The position numbers and the translations under genes were made by a program. From Sphingomonas bacterium (GTDB lineage Bacteria > Pseudomonadota > Alphaproteobacteria > Sphingomonadales > Sphingomonadaceae): 64,000 nt of DNA. The notes below the pieces were generated by a model, which was given only the letters and a program-made list of their open reading frames with translations, had not been told where the DNA came from and did no database searches. Numbering within the stretch: the stretch's first letter is position 1; each line of letters begins with the position of its first letter. This document shows positions 15,180 through 23,398 of this stretch, piece by piece. The stretch covers positions 61,768 to 125,767 of the forward strand of contig JASBRX010000036.1 of NCBI GenBank assembly GCA_030149245.1, read 5' to 3'.

Positions 15180-15998
15180 ATGGGTATCATTCCAAACTGC
15201 AAGGACCCGACGCTTTCCGCAATAAAGTCAAAGGGCTATAACGTTGTTCGCCTACCGCGGATCGATATGGCGCCGACTCAGTTGCTGGTCGCAAACGGCA
15301 AGACGCTGCAGCGGCTGGGCGACCTTCTCTCAGTTTTCGTGCCCGACCCGGATGGTCCGCCGCCGCCGCCCATCAGCGCCGACCGCCCGGGCCCCAATAT
15401 CCAGGGCACGAAGTCCGCTGATATCGGGCTCGACATCGGGCTCAATATCCTCGGAGGTCTGATCGCTGCGTTGGGTGGATCGCAAATCGGTGTTAATTTC
15501 GCATACAAGCAGGCGCGATCGGTGCAGTTCGAGTTTGGCTCGACGCTGGAAAACAGTACTCAGCTTGCCCAGATTGACGCGTTCCTCGCCTCCGCCAAGA
15601 TCAACAGCTTCGCGCGCGCGGTCGCGCAGATGCTGGAGGCGGATAAGGTGTTCGTCGTCACCAGCACGCTCAAGTCGGCGAACCTGACGGTGGCCGCCAA
15701 GGACAGCCAGAACCACTCGCTGGGGCTCGATATGCCGGTGATCCAGAATGCAATTGGCGGCAACCTGAAGGTCACCTCGGCCTCTTCAGACAATTCGGTG
15801 GTCACGTATCAGGGCTCGGTGCCACTGGTGTTCGGCTTCCAGACGGTGCAGCTGATCTTCGACAACGGCAAGTACCGCACGATGAAGCTGGTCGATGCGG
15901 GATCGCGGGTGGCAGAGGCTGGGGCCATCGGCGCGATCGAAGCGCCGGGCGGACCCGACGCACCGGCAATGCTGGAAACCGAGGCGATGCTGGCTTGA
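15180..15998 (+). CDS. probable bacterial gasdermin (bGSDM) pore-forming protein
   Basis: About 272 aa; MGIIPNC N-terminus with an early Cys; GYNVVRLPRIDMAPTQLLVANGKTLQRLGDLLSVF; hydrophobic Gly/Ala segment GLNILGGLIAALGG; FVVTSTLKSANLTV; VPLVFGFQTVQLIFDNGKYRTMKLVDAG; short C-terminal tail; protease genes directly downstream. Confidence 0.8.
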   Translation: MGIIPNCKDPTLSAIKSKGYNVVRLPRIDMAPTQLLVANGKTLQRLGDLLSVFVPDPDGPPPPPISADRPGPNIQGTKSADIGLDIGLNILGGLIAALGGSQIGVNFAYKQARSVQFEFGSTLENSTQLAQIDAFLASAKINSFARAVAQMLEADKVFVVTSTLKSANLTVAAKDSQNHSLGLDMPVIQNAIGGNLKVTSASSDNSVVTYQGSVPLVFGFQTVQLIFDNGKYRTMKLVDAGSRVAEAGAIGAIEAPGGPDAPAMLETEAMLA

Positions 15999-16045: not shown

Positions 16046-17194
16046 ATGGGATTGTTCACCTTTGGCGAACTGAATGAAATCGTGCAGCGCGCGATCCAGG
16101 CAGGGCTCGCCGCACGCCGCGAAAGCCTGTTGTTCGCGTTCCCGCCCGGGTTTGTCGCAGCACTTTCCGGATGGGGGCAAAGCAATCCCGCCGATGCGCT
16201 GAGAGCTGATCTCGGGCAGCTCAACGACCTGGACCAGCCTGTCGGCGGTGAAATCCCGATGGTGATGTGGCTGGGCAACGCCCATTCGACCACTGCGGCG
16301 ACAAGGCCGGCGGACGCCAAATACTTCAACGCGAAGGCGCTCCTCGCCGCGGAGCGCGCCGCCGCGCAGAACGGGCCCGTTACACCGGCGCCGTCAGTCG
16401 CCGCCGCCCTGACGGCGCTGACCATTCCCCAACTCGTCCTGTTCCGCAACGATCTGCTGCCCGACAGCTTCTTCAAGCTGGCGGCCGAGCGCGCCCAATC
16501 GGTCGCGCGGCTGACGGTCTATGCGTATCAGGACGGCAACCAACGCCTCCTCCCTTCCGGCAATCCGGACGGGGTCTACGGCACGGCGTGGCTGATCGGC
16601 GCGAGGCATCTGATCACCAACTGGCATGTCGTCACGGCGCGGCAGGATGGCGAGGCGCCACCCGGTCAGGCCGACATCGATCTGCAGGTCGCCAATATGC
16701 GTATCGAGTTCGATCTTATCGCGCCCGGAGCGATGACCCATATGGCGCTTGCGGCGCGGCTGGCGCACGGCAATGCGGCGCTCGATTATGCCGTCATCGA
16801 ACTGACCCAGCCAGAACCGCGCAGCGTCTTCCCGCTCGCCTCCACACTGCCGACGATCAGTGGCACCGATCCGCTGGCCGCGAACATCATTCAGCATCCC
16901 GCAGGCGAGCCGCGCCAATATGGCATCCGCGACAATCTGGTAGCCGTGGTCCAGGGCGACGACCTTGCCTATTTCACCGATACCAAAGGTGGGTCATCCG
17001 GTTCGCCGGTGTGCGACGATCAGTGGCGCGCGCTGGCGCTCCACAAGGCGACGACCGCGCAGCTGGGGAACTTCACCTTCCAGGGCAAGCAGACGGCGTG
17101 GATCAACATCGGCACGGTCATGCCGGCGATCATGGCCGACCTGAAGACCAAACAGCCTGCGCTGTGGGCCGCCATCGGCGCGAAGGTGGTCTGA
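16046..17194 (+). CDS. EAD/death-like adaptor domain + trypsin-like serine protease
   Basis: N-term FGELNEIVQRAIQAGLAARRESLLFAFPPGF...LNDLDQPVGGEIPMVMWLGNA; protease triad contexts TNWHVV, LDYAVIEL, GGSSGSPV. Confidence 0.85.
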   Translation: MGLFTFGELNEIVQRAIQAGLAARRESLLFAFPPGFVAALSGWGQSNPADALRADLGQLNDLDQPVGGEIPMVMWLGNAHSTTAATRPADAKYFNAKALLAAERAAAQNGPVTPAPSVAAALTALTIPQLVLFRNDLLPDSFFKLAAERAQSVARLTVYAYQDGNQRLLPSGNPDGVYGTAWLIGARHLITNWHVVTARQDGEAPPGQADIDLQVANMRIEFDLIAPGAMTHMALAARLAHGNAALDYAVIELTQPEPRSVFPLASTLPTISGTDPLAANIIQHPAGEPRQYGIRDNLVAVVQGDDLAYFTDTKGGSSGSPVCDDQWRALALHKATTAQLGNFTFQGKQTAWINIGTVMPAIMADLKTKQPALWAAIGAKVV

Positions 17195-17198
17195 GGCG

Positions 17199-18530
17199 AT
17201 GACAAAGCTGCTCGATTTCAACGCGCTTACAACCCTTTGCGAACGGGCGATCGAGGCCGGACTTGCGCCACCTCCGCGTGATGCGCTTTTCCTGGGATTT
17301 GACGCGGCCGTCAAAGCTGCCACCTTTTCAGACGCCGCGCCGGGTGACGCCCTGAAGATCGAAATCGACCGCCTGAACGGCTATATCGATCCGATCGAAG
17401 GCGACATCTATTTCCTGGCAATGTGGCTGATCAACGCAGCGAACAAGGTCAACGCTACCCGGCCAGAGACTGCAGGATTTTTCCGAAACCTGGCGGACAG
17501 GGTCAATGCCATTCCCCGCCCGGCACCGGCAACGGGTGTAACCACCGCAGCGCTGATCCCGGGCGCACGCGCTGAAGCGCTGATCAACCCGGCCGTCGGC
17601 GCGGCCGTGCAGATCCTGCGTGGATCAATGCCGGGAATGAACCGCAGAGCTACCAATCTGATGGTGAGCAAGCGGATGCATGACGCTCTACATCATATCC
17701 AGCTTTATACGCTGCCAATGTGGTCCGCGAGCGTGGCGGCATTGTCGAGCAGTCCCGATTACGCCCGGCAGATGGTGGAGGACAAGCATCGGGAACTGAG
17801 AGATAAGAGCGAGGCTCTACCCGGTGAGTTCGGCTTTCTTTCGACCAATGAAACGCTGCGAGCTGTCGCACAGCAGACGACCGACGCCCTGCTCTCGGCC
17901 GCCGCCGCCGCCGACACGGCGCTTGCCGCGGGCGATGCGGACGGCCTGAAGTCCGTGATCGCAAAGGTTCGTGACATCGTAAAGGCGGCCATGCCGGTTT
18001 ATGCGGGCAAGATGGACAGTTACCAGGAAGGTCTCGATCTTTCTGAGCTGGTCGCAAGCCTTACCATCATCGCTCAAAATTCGTCCGACGACGCGCTGAA
18101 CGCGAACGCAAGCCGCCTCGCCAGTTCGCTGACGACAATCATCCAGGACCTTAGCGTCATCGGGACCCAGCACAGCGAATGGCAGCTGCTGGACATGCGC
18201 CTCGGCGCGCTCGAAAACTGGTTCGGTTTCCTGCATCTGGGGCCGAGCGTCTACGCCTCGTTCAACCTGGACTGGGACGCAGTCCATTCCGCCATTGAGA
18301 CCCTGTCGAGTCAGGGGCCAAGTGAACGCTTCGATCCAGTCAAGCGGCTGCGTGAAGCCTTTCTGCAAATTTGCCCTGTGCCCATCCAAGGCGCTCCTGA
18401 GAAAGAGGCGACGAAGGCGTTCGTCGACTTCGTGATCCAGGCGCGCACGGTGTTCTACGGGGTGGACGTCCGCATGAAGCAAATCTGCAACCAGCTGCGC
18501 GAAATGACCAATCTGCTGGCGCAATTGTAA
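17199..18530 (+). CDS. EAD/death-like adaptor domain protein with uncharacterised helical C-terminal region
   Basis: N-term FNALTTLCERAIEAGLAPPPRDALFLGFDAAV...LNGYIDPIEGDIYFLAMWLINAANKVNATRPE aligns with N-term of the adjacent protease; remainder unassigned. Confidence 0.7.
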   Translation: MTKLLDFNALTTLCERAIEAGLAPPPRDALFLGFDAAVKAATFSDAAPGDALKIEIDRLNGYIDPIEGDIYFLAMWLINAANKVNATRPETAGFFRNLADRVNAIPRPAPATGVTTAALIPGARAEALINPAVGAAVQILRGSMPGMNRRATNLMVSKRMHDALHHIQLYTLPMWSASVAALSSSPDYARQMVEDKHRELRDKSEALPGEFGFLSTNETLRAVAQQTTDALLSAAAAADTALAAGDADGLKSVIAKVRDIVKAAMPVYAGKMDSYQEGLDLSELVASLTIIAQNSSDDALNANASRLASSLTTIIQDLSVIGTQHSEWQLLDMRLGALENWFGFLHLGPSVYASFNLDWDAVHSAIETLSSQGPSERFDPVKRLREAFLQICPVPIQGAPEKEATKAFVDFVIQARTVFYGVDVRMKQICNQLREMTNLLAQL

Positions 18531-18540
18531 GGACCGCGAA

Positions 18541-20163
18541 ATGTACCGGGTTGCCTTCGAGGAAAATCAGGCTGAGCCATTCGCATCGCCGGTGGAGGGC
18601 GAGCAGGCGCATATCAAGCTGGTCGAGCGGGTACGCGAGATAGAGGCCGCGATCAGTACAGTCGATACACCGCCTGCCGGTGCGATCGACAGTCTCGCTC
18701 AACTGCGGGACGACATTGCCGTCTATGAGGCCCGGCTGGTCGCGTCTGGCGCCCATATGCCCGAAGGCAGCCGGCGCGATCTTTCCCAGAGCGTTTTGGA
18801 TTTTTGGGCGCTCCGCCAATCCGATCTTGCGGCGCTGGCGGCTCGCTATTCTCCGAACGAGCAGACAATGGTCCGGCAGGAGTTGCCCGCGGCCAAACTG
18901 CTTGCGCCCTATGATGAGGCAACTGCCGTCGCTGCCGCGGCCAAGGCCGAGGAATGCTATGTCGCGCTGCCCGACGATTCGGCGCGCGACGCGGCGCGCG
19001 GCGCCTTCCTCTCTCTCCTGCAGCGCAACGCTCCGCTCTCGCCCCCGGAAATCGCGGCGCTGGAGCCGTTCGCCGAGGCGGGTGTGCTCAGTCGATTGCC
19101 CACCGATGTGCTGGAGCCGGGCTATGATCTGGGGCACGAAGCACTTCCGCAGGCTTGGCAGAGGCTTGCCGAGTGGCAGCTCCAGGCGGCGAAGGTCCTT
19201 AGCGATCTGGATCGGGTACGAAGCAGCGCGCAGGCGTGGACGGAGACCAAGAGCTTCTCCGAATTGCCCCAGGGGCCGGCGGTCGATGTGGTCGCCAAGT
19301 TGGCCGAGCATGACGATTCGTTGAAGGAATATGCCGCTGCTGCCTACCGCCGCCGCACGCGCGCGCGCGCAATTGCGTGGGCAGCCGGGGTGATCTTCGC
19401 TGTTGCGCTTATTGGTGTCGGCACCTTAACTGTCCTCCTCACCTCGCGCCGGCCATCGCCCCCGGGCACGTCCATAGCGGCTGAATTCCAGGCCACGCAG
19501 AACGAGGCTTCGGAAGAGGTCATCGTCTCCGATCAGCCGCAGTCCGGCAAATCCGATACGGCGCAAGGTTCCACGGGCTGGATCTGGCTCGGTTCCACTG
19601 CGCTTCCGCAGGTGACGCTTGAAAACGGCACGCTGGCGGATCCGGCCGGCTTCAAGGGCGGGATGAAAGTGCGGACCCGCGCCAACCTCAAGATTCGTCA
19701 ACGCGGGCCAGAAGACAATGGCGAGAATATCGCCGGAGACCGGATCGGCCAGGTGTCGAGCGACGTGATCGTAGAATTGAAAAAGACGACGTCGGTGACG
19801 GTTGATGGCGTGGAGCAATATTGGGCCGAGGTACGGGTGATCCCGGTCGTGTATGTCCAGCGCTTCAGGGCAGCGGACCTGCGCATGGCCGAACTCCGGA
19901 AGGCGTTGGCGGACCGCGGCTTTCCGGCCCTGTACGAGCAGAAGCTCGACAGGATCGTGCAGGTCGACCCCGGACTGCCCTTCGACGTTCGCTACTATTA
20001 CGAGCAGGATAAGCAGGCGGCGAGCGAGGTGGCCGGCATCTTGCTACGCTGGCTTGGCAACGAACGCGTGCCGGTGGACAGAACCCTGTTCCCCCTGGTC
20101 GACACGCCAATCGCCGAACGGGTGAAAACCGGGACGATTGAAGTTTGGCTTTACCAGCGTTGA
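18541..20163 (+). CDS. membrane protein resembling the C-terminal tail of STAND NTPases (no NTPase domain) with SH3-like extra-membrane region
   Basis: GYDLGHEALPQAWQRLAEWQ resembles the HEALL-x-WPRL-xx-WL motif of nSTAND proteins; RRRTRARAIAWAAGVIFAVALIGVGTLTVLL TM; RTRANLKIRQRGP...IGQVSSDVIVEL SH3-like. Confidence 0.6.
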   Translation: MYRVAFEENQAEPFASPVEGEQAHIKLVERVREIEAAISTVDTPPAGAIDSLAQLRDDIAVYEARLVASGAHMPEGSRRDLSQSVLDFWALRQSDLAALAARYSPNEQTMVRQELPAAKLLAPYDEATAVAAAAKAEECYVALPDDSARDAARGAFLSLLQRNAPLSPPEIAALEPFAEAGVLSRLPTDVLEPGYDLGHEALPQAWQRLAEWQLQAAKVLSDLDRVRSSAQAWTETKSFSELPQGPAVDVVAKLAEHDDSLKEYAAAAYRRRTRARAIAWAAGVIFAVALIGVGTLTVLLTSRRPSPPGTSIAAEFQATQNEASEEVIVSDQPQSGKSDTAQGSTGWIWLGSTALPQVTLENGTLADPAGFKGGMKVRTRANLKIRQRGPEDNGENIAGDRIGQVSSDVIVELKKTTSVTVDGVEQYWAEVRVIPVVYVQRFRAADLRMAELRKALADRGFPALYEQKLDRIVQVDPGLPFDVRYYYEQDKQAASEVAGILLRWLGNERVPVDRTLFPLVDTPIAERVKTGTIEVWLYQR

Positions 20164-20191: not shown

Positions 20192-22960
20192 ATGGCCAAT
20201 GACAAGGGGCTGCCCGCCGCCCGCTTTGCCCGCACACTGCTAGCGAAGGCCGCGCCGGGCGGAGGGCACCGGACTGAGGCCGCGGGCCTGGCATCGGCGG
20301 GGGAACTGGCCGAGGCTGTGGGTCCTTCGGTGGAAGAGTTGGTCCCGAAGTCGGTACCCGAAGGCTTTTCACGCGATGAGGTGGAGGCGGTTGCGCGCAA
20401 GCTGCTCGTCACCGACGAGCTTAGCCCGCGCGAGACCTTCGTCACCGAGGCGATCATCATTCCCGACTTGCGCCCTGCGGTGTTCGTGACCGGCAACGAC
20501 TATGCGATCGATCACCCGGCATGGACCGACTATGTCGCGGGCACGCCCGCGCACGCCAATTTCTGCCGGGCGATTCCGTCGGTCGGGCGGATCGAACTGA
20601 TCGGGAATCCGAGCCTGCCGTTCGGAGGAACCGGCTTCGTCGTCGCGCGGGATCTGGTGATGACCAACCGCCACGTCGCATCGCTGTTCGCGGCCGGCAT
20701 TGGCGTGCGCAACCTGCGTTTTCAGGACCAGCTGGGTGCGGCGGTCGATTTCGTGCGCGAACATGGCCAATCGTCCGGCGGCACGCCGTTCGCGGTACGC
20801 GATATCGTGATGATCCACCCCTATTGGGATCTGGCGCTGCTGCGCGTTGAAGGCCTTGAAGATCGCGAGCCGTTGACGTTCGCGACCTATGAGCCGGATC
20901 CCGCCAAGCCGCGACGTATCGCCGTGATCGGCTATCCCGCGTTCGACCCGCGCAACGATGCCAGCGTACAGAATCAAGTGTTTCACGGCGTCTACAACGT
21001 CAAGCGGCTGCAGCCGGGCCTGTATAACGGGCGCCGCAAGATCGACAGCTATGGCAAGCTGGTCGATGCCGGGACCCATGACAGCTCCACACTGGCTGGC
21101 AATTCCGGTTCGGTAGTGGTCGAGGCCGACGGTGGCCAAGTCGTCGGGCTGCACTTTGCGGGGATCTACAAGGACAGCAACTTCGCGGTGCCGGCAGTCG
21201 ATCTGGCGCGCGATCCGCGGATGATCGACGCCGGCTTGAAGTTCGCGCCGGGAGCGGAAGCGAGCAGCGGGCCGTGGGACATCTTTTGGGCCGCAACATC
21301 GTCGGTCGGGAATGAATTCGGCACGGCGCAAAGAGGGCAGGCGGTGATGGCGGAACAAGGCAAGACCATAAGGCTGACGGTGCCGGTGGAAATCGAGCTT
21401 TCCATCGGCGTGACCGGTGCGAGCATTGCGGGCGCGACGGCGGCGGTGGGCGGTGGTGCGCTGACCGAGAAGATGGTCGAACCCTTCCACGATCCGATCG
21501 AGCTGCCGCGTGAGGGCTATGATCCCGGCTTCCTGGGCATCGCCGTGCCCATGCCCGTGCCGCGCCGCCCGAACGAATGCGCGCAGCTGGCCGATGGGTC
21601 GAACGAGCTGAAATATTATAACTTCTCGATCGTGATGAACGCTGGCCGGCGCTTGGCACTCTTCGCCGCGTCGAACGTGGATGCGCGGGCAGTGGCGAAG
21701 GAGCCGGAGCCCGGCCACAAATATACGCGTGCCGGCCTGAGCGGGCTGGACGAAGGCGATGTCGAGAAGTGGTTCACCGACCCGCGCATCCGCGGCATCG
21801 AGCAGCTGCCCGACCGTTTCTTCACCAAAGATCGCAAGGCGTTCGACAAGGGCCATATCGTCCGACGCGAGGATGTGGCGTGGGGCGGGAGCTTCTCCGA
21901 AGTGCGCCGTGCCAATGGTGATACCTATTTCGTCACCAATTGCTCGCCGCAGACCGCCGGGTTCAACCGTTCGAACCGGAAGGACAATTGGGGCGCGCTC
22001 GAGGATCTGGTGCTAAAGCAGGCAAAGGCCGAGAAATACTGCCTGTTCGCCGGGCCTGTGCTGCACGCGGCTGATCCCGAATTCACCGGGGTCGATGATT
22101 TCGGCGGCGTCAAGGTCCGTATTCCGCAGAAATATTGGAAGGTCGTTGTCGCGCGCGCCGGGAACGCGCTCAAGAGCTTCGCCTTCGTGCTCAATCAGGA
22201 CGTCTCGCAGACGCCGATGGAGTTCGCGGTGCCGGCGACCTGGCAGCGGCATATGGTCAGGCTATCGGACTTGCAGGCGGAGCTGGACAGCCTCGATTTC
22301 GCGCCGGAACTGATAGCGGCCGACCAGTATGACGCCGTGCGCGATGGCAGCGAAACCGCCGCGCTGGACTCGGTAATGGAGGCAATCATCGCGATGGCCC
22401 CGGCCGAAGTCGTGACGGAAGGACCTCCGCGCCAGCACGGCCGCTTCGTTGGCTTGCCGCTGCAAGTGGCATTCAACACCGATCAGGACGAGCGCCGCTC
22501 GGCCCAGCTGCTCTCGCCGCTAAGCTATTTCCAGCCCGACGAGTCCGAATGGCCGGTACCGGCGGATGCCAGACTTGATGGCGCCTCGATCCCCAGGCCG
22601 TTCTGGTCCGTGATTGGTGGGCCATTCGAGGGACTCTACCTCGAGGCTTCGGTGGTTCACGATTACTATTGCGACCATCATGTGCGCCCATGGCGCGACG
22701 TCCACCGGATGTTCTACGATGCGATGCTGTGCCGCGGGGTCGGCGGATTCTGGGCACGGATCATGTATTATGCGGTCTACCGCTTCGGGCCACGATGGGA
22801 GATGGTCGAGGGCCTAGGGTCGGTCGCCATCCCGGCCGAGGCCCTCACGGACGACAAGGCGCCGTCCATTCTGGCCGACGCGAAAATTCTGGTGCACGAT
22901 CTGCCGCGTGAAATGATCGAGGCACTTGCCGAAAAGAGCGCTGCGAAAGCGGGACGGTAG
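20192..22960 (+). CDS. trypsin-like protease + EndoG/NucA-type nonspecific nuclease + DUF1353 fusion
   Basis: Triad contexts MTNRHVASL, WDLALLRVE, LAGNSGSVVV; nuclease motif KAFDKGHIVRREDVAWG with FNRSNRKDNWGALED; C-term LDGASIPRPFWSVIGGPFEGLYLEASVVHDYYCDHH; RBS GGAGG at 20181. Confidence 0.85.
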   Translation: MANDKGLPAARFARTLLAKAAPGGGHRTEAAGLASAGELAEAVGPSVEELVPKSVPEGFSRDEVEAVARKLLVTDELSPRETFVTEAIIIPDLRPAVFVTGNDYAIDHPAWTDYVAGTPAHANFCRAIPSVGRIELIGNPSLPFGGTGFVVARDLVMTNRHVASLFAAGIGVRNLRFQDQLGAAVDFVREHGQSSGGTPFAVRDIVMIHPYWDLALLRVEGLEDREPLTFATYEPDPAKPRRIAVIGYPAFDPRNDASVQNQVFHGVYNVKRLQPGLYNGRRKIDSYGKLVDAGTHDSSTLAGNSGSVVVEADGGQVVGLHFAGIYKDSNFAVPAVDLARDPRMIDAGLKFAPGAEASSGPWDIFWAATSSVGNEFGTAQRGQAVMAEQGKTIRLTVPVEIELSIGVTGASIAGATAAVGGGALTEKMVEPFHDPIELPREGYDPGFLGIAVPMPVPRRPNECAQLADGSNELKYYNFSIVMNAGRRLALFAASNVDARAVAKEPEPGHKYTRAGLSGLDEGDVEKWFTDPRIRGIEQLPDRFFTKDRKAFDKGHIVRREDVAWGGSFSEVRRANGDTYFVTNCSPQTAGFNRSNRKDNWGALEDLVLKQAKAEKYCLFAGPVLHAADPEFTGVDDFGGVKVRIPQKYWKVVVARAGNALKSFAFVLNQDVSQTPMEFAVPATWQRHMVRLSDLQAELDSLDFAPELIAADQYDAVRDGSETAALDSVMEAIIAMAPAEVVTEGPPRQHGRFVGLPLQVAFNTDQDERRSAQLLSPLSYFQPDESEWPVPADARLDGASIPRPFWSVIGGPFEGLYLEASVVHDYYCDHHVRPWRDVHRMFYDAMLCRGVGGFWARIMYYAVYRFGPRWEMVEGLGSVAIPAEALTDDKAPSILADAKILVHDLPREMIEALAEKSAAKAGR

Positions 22961-23018: not shown

Positions 23019-23398
23019 ATGAGTAAATCCGCGAGGACCGCCGTCGGGGTCCGTTACCTCCTCGCCGTCGTCGACGACTTTGCATGCAAGAGTCTGGCGC
23101 TGGTGGTGGACACGTCACTGTTGGGCGCTGGTGTTGCGTACCAACCCGATGCGATCATCACGGTGCGTGGCCGGCCGCTGGTGATCGTCAGCGACAGCGG
23201 GATCGATCTGACGATCCTGGCGATCCTGCGCTGGGCGCAGGACCGGCAGATCGAGCGGCACTACATCGCGCCGGGCAAGCCACGGCAGAACGGCTACGTC
23301 GGGAGCGTCAATGATAGCTTGCACGTCAATCGCTGCGGGGCCGTTCCTTACCTCGTGAAAGAGCATCGAGTACGCCCCGACAAACGAGCATGACGACG
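23019..23398 (+). pseudogene. IS3-family transposase OrfB (rve) remnant
   Basis: YLLAVVDDFACKSLALVVDTSL...RPLVIVSDSGIDLT...HYIAPGKPRQNGYVGSVNDSL; catalytic Glu context (GFVESFNG) changed to GYVGSVND; truncated both ends. Confidence 0.8.

Follow-up and report, generated by a model that had tools for sequence, protein, structure and literature searches.

Background

According to reviews, most bacterial gasdermins (bGSDMs) are palmitoylated on an N-terminal Cys (PMC9612521, PMC9079055), and in the known members cleavage takes place some 20 aa before the C-terminus (PMC9612521). In some of these proteins the cut falls after Arg (PMC9612521), and the Runella bGSDM has L247 at P1 and Gly at P1′ (PMC9079055). 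For a different trypsin-like immune protease, the P1 residue is Ile (PMC12799240). In bacterial conflict systems, EAD pairs act as homotypic couplers, and trypsin-NucA systems, some of them with EAD1, have been described as System 3 (PMC7159879). In LypABC of Caulobacter, the protease serine of a trypsin-endonuclease protein is essential for lysis (PMC13236601). Among the papers that a literature search listed, none combined 'gasdermin' with 'effector-associated domain'.

Here, we analyse a 64,000-nucleotide stretch of Sphingomonas DNA (the window). It contains an operon without an NLR-type ATPase, most plausibly a gasdermin coupled to a conflict system of the EAD/NucA kind with two proteases.

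A gasdermin-led operon

The genes of the operon follow one another in this order:

15180..15998, + strand: bacterial gasdermin, 272 aa (translation, PADLOC, NCBIfam, PDB 7n51 match, fold)
16046..17194, + strand: EAD5 + Trypsin_2 protease (EAD5-trypsin), proposed initiator (Pfam EAD5 and Trypsin_2; relatives on rhizobial plasmids without bGSDM)
17199..18530, + strand: EAD5-like N-terminus and a second region, proposed to serve the EAD5-trypsin as adaptor or core partner (EAD5 similarity)
18541..20163, + strand: membrane protein, TM at about residues 282-300, with an nSTAND1-C-terminal-like stretch and no P-loop
20192..22960, + strand: Trypsin_2 + Endonuclease_NS (NucA) + DUF1353, proposed executioner that would cut the gasdermin (Pfam, PADLOC, relatives)

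The product of the first gene is a real bacterial gasdermin, and its matches are well beyond chance: E=1.3e-76 to the PADLOC bGSDM, 212 bits to NCBIfam prok_gasdermin (NF051890; cut-off 100) and E=1.3e-41 to PDB 7n51, the Vitiosangium gasdermin. Its AF2 model is of moderate confidence (mean pLDDT 63), and the best two fold matches of this model are 8sl0 (VIA Z 13.2) and 7n51 (12.6). Pfam alone did not recognise the protein. The reading frame is intact, and translation gives MGIIPNCKDP...KYRTMKLVDAGSRVAEAGAIGAIEAPGGPDAPAMLETEAMLA*, matching letter for letter the N-terminus, Cys7 and tail read in a preliminary description of this DNA. The start at 15180 is supported because GAGG lies at -12 and the start MG[IL][IL]P[NS]CKDP recurs in two relatives. 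It is presumably a suicide protein that forms membrane pores and is restrained by its tail, with cell death as the expected result of its release.

15198..15200, + strand: Cys7 codon, predicted lipidation site (alignment with the N-terminal Cys of relatives)

Cys7 is the sole Cys of this gasdermin. In alignment it matches the N-terminal Cys found in 7n51, in the Pedobacter (L005) and Labilithrix (L006) proteins, and in the gasdermins at L021, L022 and L023. This bears out the lipidatable N-terminal Cys of the preliminary description, and lipidation of Cys7 itself is predicted. Elsewhere, a gasdermin that adjoins a subtilisin-type protease (L024 4264-5250) has no Cys at the conserved N-terminal place.

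Two neighbouring proteins of the operon share EAD5 sequence: the N-terminus of the 17199-18530 product is 37% identical to the EAD5 region of the 16046-17194 product (E=9e-15). Its place is occupied by EAD5-VMAP in L010, and in Rhizobium phaseoli an EAD5-trypsin adjoins EAD5-VMAP, beside MoxR ATPase and SAV_2336-type genes. None of the five operon proteins contains a P-loop, and the search for an NLR-type NTPase found no Pfam NTPase domain in the operon except the C-terminal nSTAND1 fragment. Just past the operon, at 23019-23393 of the window, lies a short integrase-core (rve) remnant. On an IMG/VR viral contig (L027 2203-8089), phage-like genes are accompanied by a trypsin of the executioner type, a second trypsin whose EAD1 match is sub-threshold, an EAD1-like protein and a lysozyme-like gene.

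Relatives of the gasdermin and the protease linked to them

Relatives were sought in genome samples that are draws from larger taxa, and rarity figures are accordingly rough. In the family sample, 6 of 397 genomes (a rough figure) carry a gasdermin, five of them beyond the window. The window's own genome was the only match in the class-wide sample, the order sample gave a match below cut-off (G079), and further genus samples added none over cut-off. Pattern scans with the gasdermin alone returned no relative from genome_contigs or viral_contigs, nor did tblastn with the gasdermin from plasmids or phages. A weak match from the phylum sample (L004) does not read as a gasdermin.

The closest relatives, from the family-wide genome search, are the gasdermins of L021 (60% identity) and L022 (58%). 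At L021, the gasdermin gene and the beginning of a trypsin gene overlap; this trypsin is 34% identical (E=1.5e-23) to residues 75-331 of the 20192-22960 protein, its N-terminal trypsin domain. On the gasdermin's other side is a DUF1353 gene whose product shares 50% identity with the C-terminus of the same window protein across 207 aa. At L022, a protease of the 20192-22960 type (32% identical to that of L021, 27% to that of the window) is encoded directly downstream of the gasdermin. Beyond it come a trypsin matching the PADLOC gasdermin-system 'trypsin-like' profile and a 1075-aa P-loop protein, and the locus looks like a Lysobacter-type gasdermin system. The PADLOC protease profile PDLC03010 matches all three proteases, at E=3.7e-178 for L022, E=2.2e-40 for L021 and a modest E=1.2e-11 for the window.

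No EAD5-trypsin was found among the gasdermin neighbours at L021 and L022, and EAD5-trypsins without gasdermin occur on rhizobial plasmids and in G126. Together with the arrangements at L021 and L022, this linkage suggests that gasdermins of this clade travel with a protease of the 20192-22960 type, rather than with the 16046-17194 product that had earlier been chosen as the cutter.

Two side observations concern these loci. At L021, the DUF1353 gene (16579-18111) next to the gasdermin has a sub-threshold PF07737 (ATLF) match and an HExxH-type motif, HESLH. PDLC03010 is named 'nacht', yet it matches gasdermin-system trypsin-like proteases (L022 5370-6581, L021 14537-15718), and the label looks misassigned.

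The same loci bear on whether the gasdermin is a minor passenger and the NucA nuclease the main killer. Trypsin-NucA proteins without gasdermin are indeed common on alphaproteobacterial plasmids (database search; PMC7159879). However, the L021 protease has no nuclease domain, the window gasdermin keeps an intact frame with conserved Cys and tail, and LypC-dependent lysis in Caulobacter does not need the endonuclease residues (PMC13236601). We consider a leading role for the nuclease quite unlikely.

The tail and its candidate cut sites

15870..15890, + strand: KYRTMKL, residues 231-237, the final pore-domain beta strand (AF2 strand; kept in 8sl0)
15906..15908, + strand: R243, P1 candidate of the preliminary description (Ile and Val in two close relatives)
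15915..15920, + strand: E246-A247, predicted cut site (invariant in three protease-linked relatives; protease pocket)
15963..15992, + strand: PAMLETEAML, C-terminal stretch standing where other bGSDM tails have their anchor (last-16 similarity)

The Vitiosangium pore chain 8sl0 keeps a strand equivalent to KYRTMKL, and the match to it ends at its residue 233, which aligns with model residue 239 of the window gasdermin. On this model, the free tail would run from about residue 240 to 272, about 33 residues. A short tail past the pore domain, as first described, is thus present; the 27-40 residues given for its release were slightly off, with 29 aa for a cut at R243, 36 at K236, 39 at R233 and 41 at K231. 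Cleavage within KYRTMK, one of the two regions originally put forward, is unlikely: the solved pore form retains the equivalent strand, and a cut at K231 or R233 would take away a portion of it; K236 belongs to this strand as well.

Taken as a group, bGSDM tails show last-16 similarity above shuffles, and the window tail's own pairwise scores are weak. Over 9 residues at a time, the window tail scores above shuffles against the tails of L021 (p=0.048) and L022 (p=0.012), at DAGSRVAEA, and nowhere against those of Vitiosangium, L006 and L005. The three linked gasdermins (window, L021 and L022) read VAEAG, ALEAA and VAEAV here. E246-A247 is invariant among them, residue 243 is R, I and V respectively, and the L021 and L022 tails have no K/R past the last strand.

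These tails weigh against the other region of the preliminary description, AGSR, in which the EAD5-trypsin would cut after R243 and free 29 residues. Its gene lies 47 bp downstream of the gasdermin, closer than any other protease gene, and its product has Asp at trypsin position 189. R243 lies just beyond the last strand, and Arg cuts are known among bGSDMs (PMC9612521). Nevertheless, R243 is not conserved, the two relatives offer neither a K/R past the strand nor a neighbouring EAD5-trypsin, and EAD5-trypsins are found without any gasdermin. Beside its Asp, the window's EAD5-trypsin has Thr190 and His213 too, and 'trypsin-like' denotes a fold, not a P1 residue. We regard the R243 cut as unlikely.

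A hydrophobic site such as I250-G251, which would leave a 22-aa tail, recalls the Leu-Gly site of the Runella bGSDM (L247 with Gly at P1′; PMC9079055) and the Ile cut of the trypsin-like immune protease (PMC12799240). In L022, however, no residue clearly corresponds to I250, and the pocket of the linked protease is of Glu/Gln type. Cleavage there by an operon protease seems very unlikely.

The protease pocket and the predicted bond

The case for that pocket comes from the S1 motif. In the L021 protease, SHDASTLGGNSGS...IIGIHFGG is in register with RYDLSTVGGNSGS...VIGIHYGG of glutamyl endopeptidase, and overall sequence similarity between executioner protease and V8-type glutamyl endopeptidases is weak. 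The trypsin domain of the 20192-22960 product has Thr190, His213 and Gly216 in the pocket. Across 13 relatives of the executioner type, His213 and Gly216 are invariant and Thr/Ser190 is present in 12. Glu-specific enzymes require His213 and Thr/Ser190 in S1, and Gly216 is shared by V8-type enzymes and the Gln-specific 3C enzymes (PMC5508998). For the linked protease, a pocket of the glutamyl-endopeptidase/3C type is therefore predicted, accepting P1 Glu or Gln. Against a strict Glu reading, Gln-specific 3C proteases share His213 and Thr190, and a processed N-terminus contributes to pockets of the V8 type (PMC5508998). At pLDDT 40, the AF2 model of the executioner is too poor for a pocket check.

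Because this pocket appears to be of Glu/Gln type and E246-A247 is invariant in the three tails, we predict a cut at E246/A247 that would free 26 residues, a prediction drawn from three tails only.

20447..20452, + strand: E86-A87 of the executioner, possible self-processing site (Glu invariant in 13 relatives)

An E-[AST] pair is found in 13/13 proteases, some 60 residues ahead of the GTGF strand that is conserved in the catalytic domain. In the window protein this pair, E86-A87, may be a self-processing site or merely a structural feature.

Proposed mechanism

Our best explanation, to which we give slightly less than an even chance, is an operon of the abortive-infection type in which the second protease (20192-22960) cuts the gasdermin after E246. 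It builds on the identity of the gasdermin, its aligned Cys, the make-up of the operon, the linkage of the second protease, the pocket residues and the conservation of E246-A247. At rest, the gasdermin would carry a fatty acid on Cys7 and be kept inactive by the last 26-30 residues of its chain. A signal, possibly from a phage, would reach the EAD5 pair (the EAD5-trypsin and the 17199-18530 adaptor), with the participation of the membrane protein, and this pair would turn on the second protease. The glutamyl-endopeptidase-like trypsin domain of the latter would then cut after E246. Departure of the tail would allow the lipidated pore domains to oligomerise, and the cell would die.

Several points speak against this explanation. 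The E246-A247 bond is taken from three tails, and the gasdermin model leaves the tail disordered (pLDDT 27-32). In the window, but not at L021, the protease forms one protein with NucA and DUF1353, and the window protein matches PDLC03010 only modestly. Proteases of this type may also have other targets, as the Caulobacter LypC-type protein has no gasdermin in its operon (PMC13236601). The shared 3C residues, the processed N-terminus of V8-type pockets and the poor executioner model weigh in the same direction.

In a further proposal, which we hold to be rather doubtful, the EAD5 two-protease cascade runs without an NLR, and the Glu-specific executioner frees itself at E86-A87 before cleaving E246-A247 of the gasdermin, recognising E-A at both bonds. 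If the executioner does cut the gasdermin after Glu, a further kind of cut residue would join Leu and Arg among bacterial gasdermins. In that case, a two-step protease chain that resembles initiator and executioner caspases would also be working without an NLR. The minimal arrangement of L021 offers a simple system for examining the Glu-cut idea.

Comparison with known systems

The Vitiosangium bGSDM (7n51, 8sl0) resembles the window gasdermin in sequence (38% identity), in the register of the N-terminal Cys, in fold and in approximate tail length. The two differ in that the Cys is at position 7 in the window protein and at position 4 in Vitiosangium, whose tail has no K/R.

Lysobacter-type CARD-NLR gasdermin systems likewise combine a gasdermin, a PDLC03010-type protease and a second trypsin-like protease. 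In contrast to these, the window operon has neither an NLR-type ATPase nor a P-loop, and carries EAD5 on the first protease and its neighbour. For the first protease (16046-17194), the member that carries a CARD-like domain in CARD-NLR systems, the assignment by Pfam is EAD5.

LypABC shares with the window a trypsin-endonuclease protein with a partner trypsin, but includes the NLR-like LypB and has no gasdermin in the operon (PMC13236601). In System 3 of Kaur et al. 2020 (PMC7159879), as in the window, a trypsin-NucA protein occurs with an EAD-bearing second trypsin and an adjacent second EAD copy. The window differs in having EAD5 in place of EAD1, which is found in a subset of System 3 operons, and in adding a gasdermin effector, while the coupling principle is alike.
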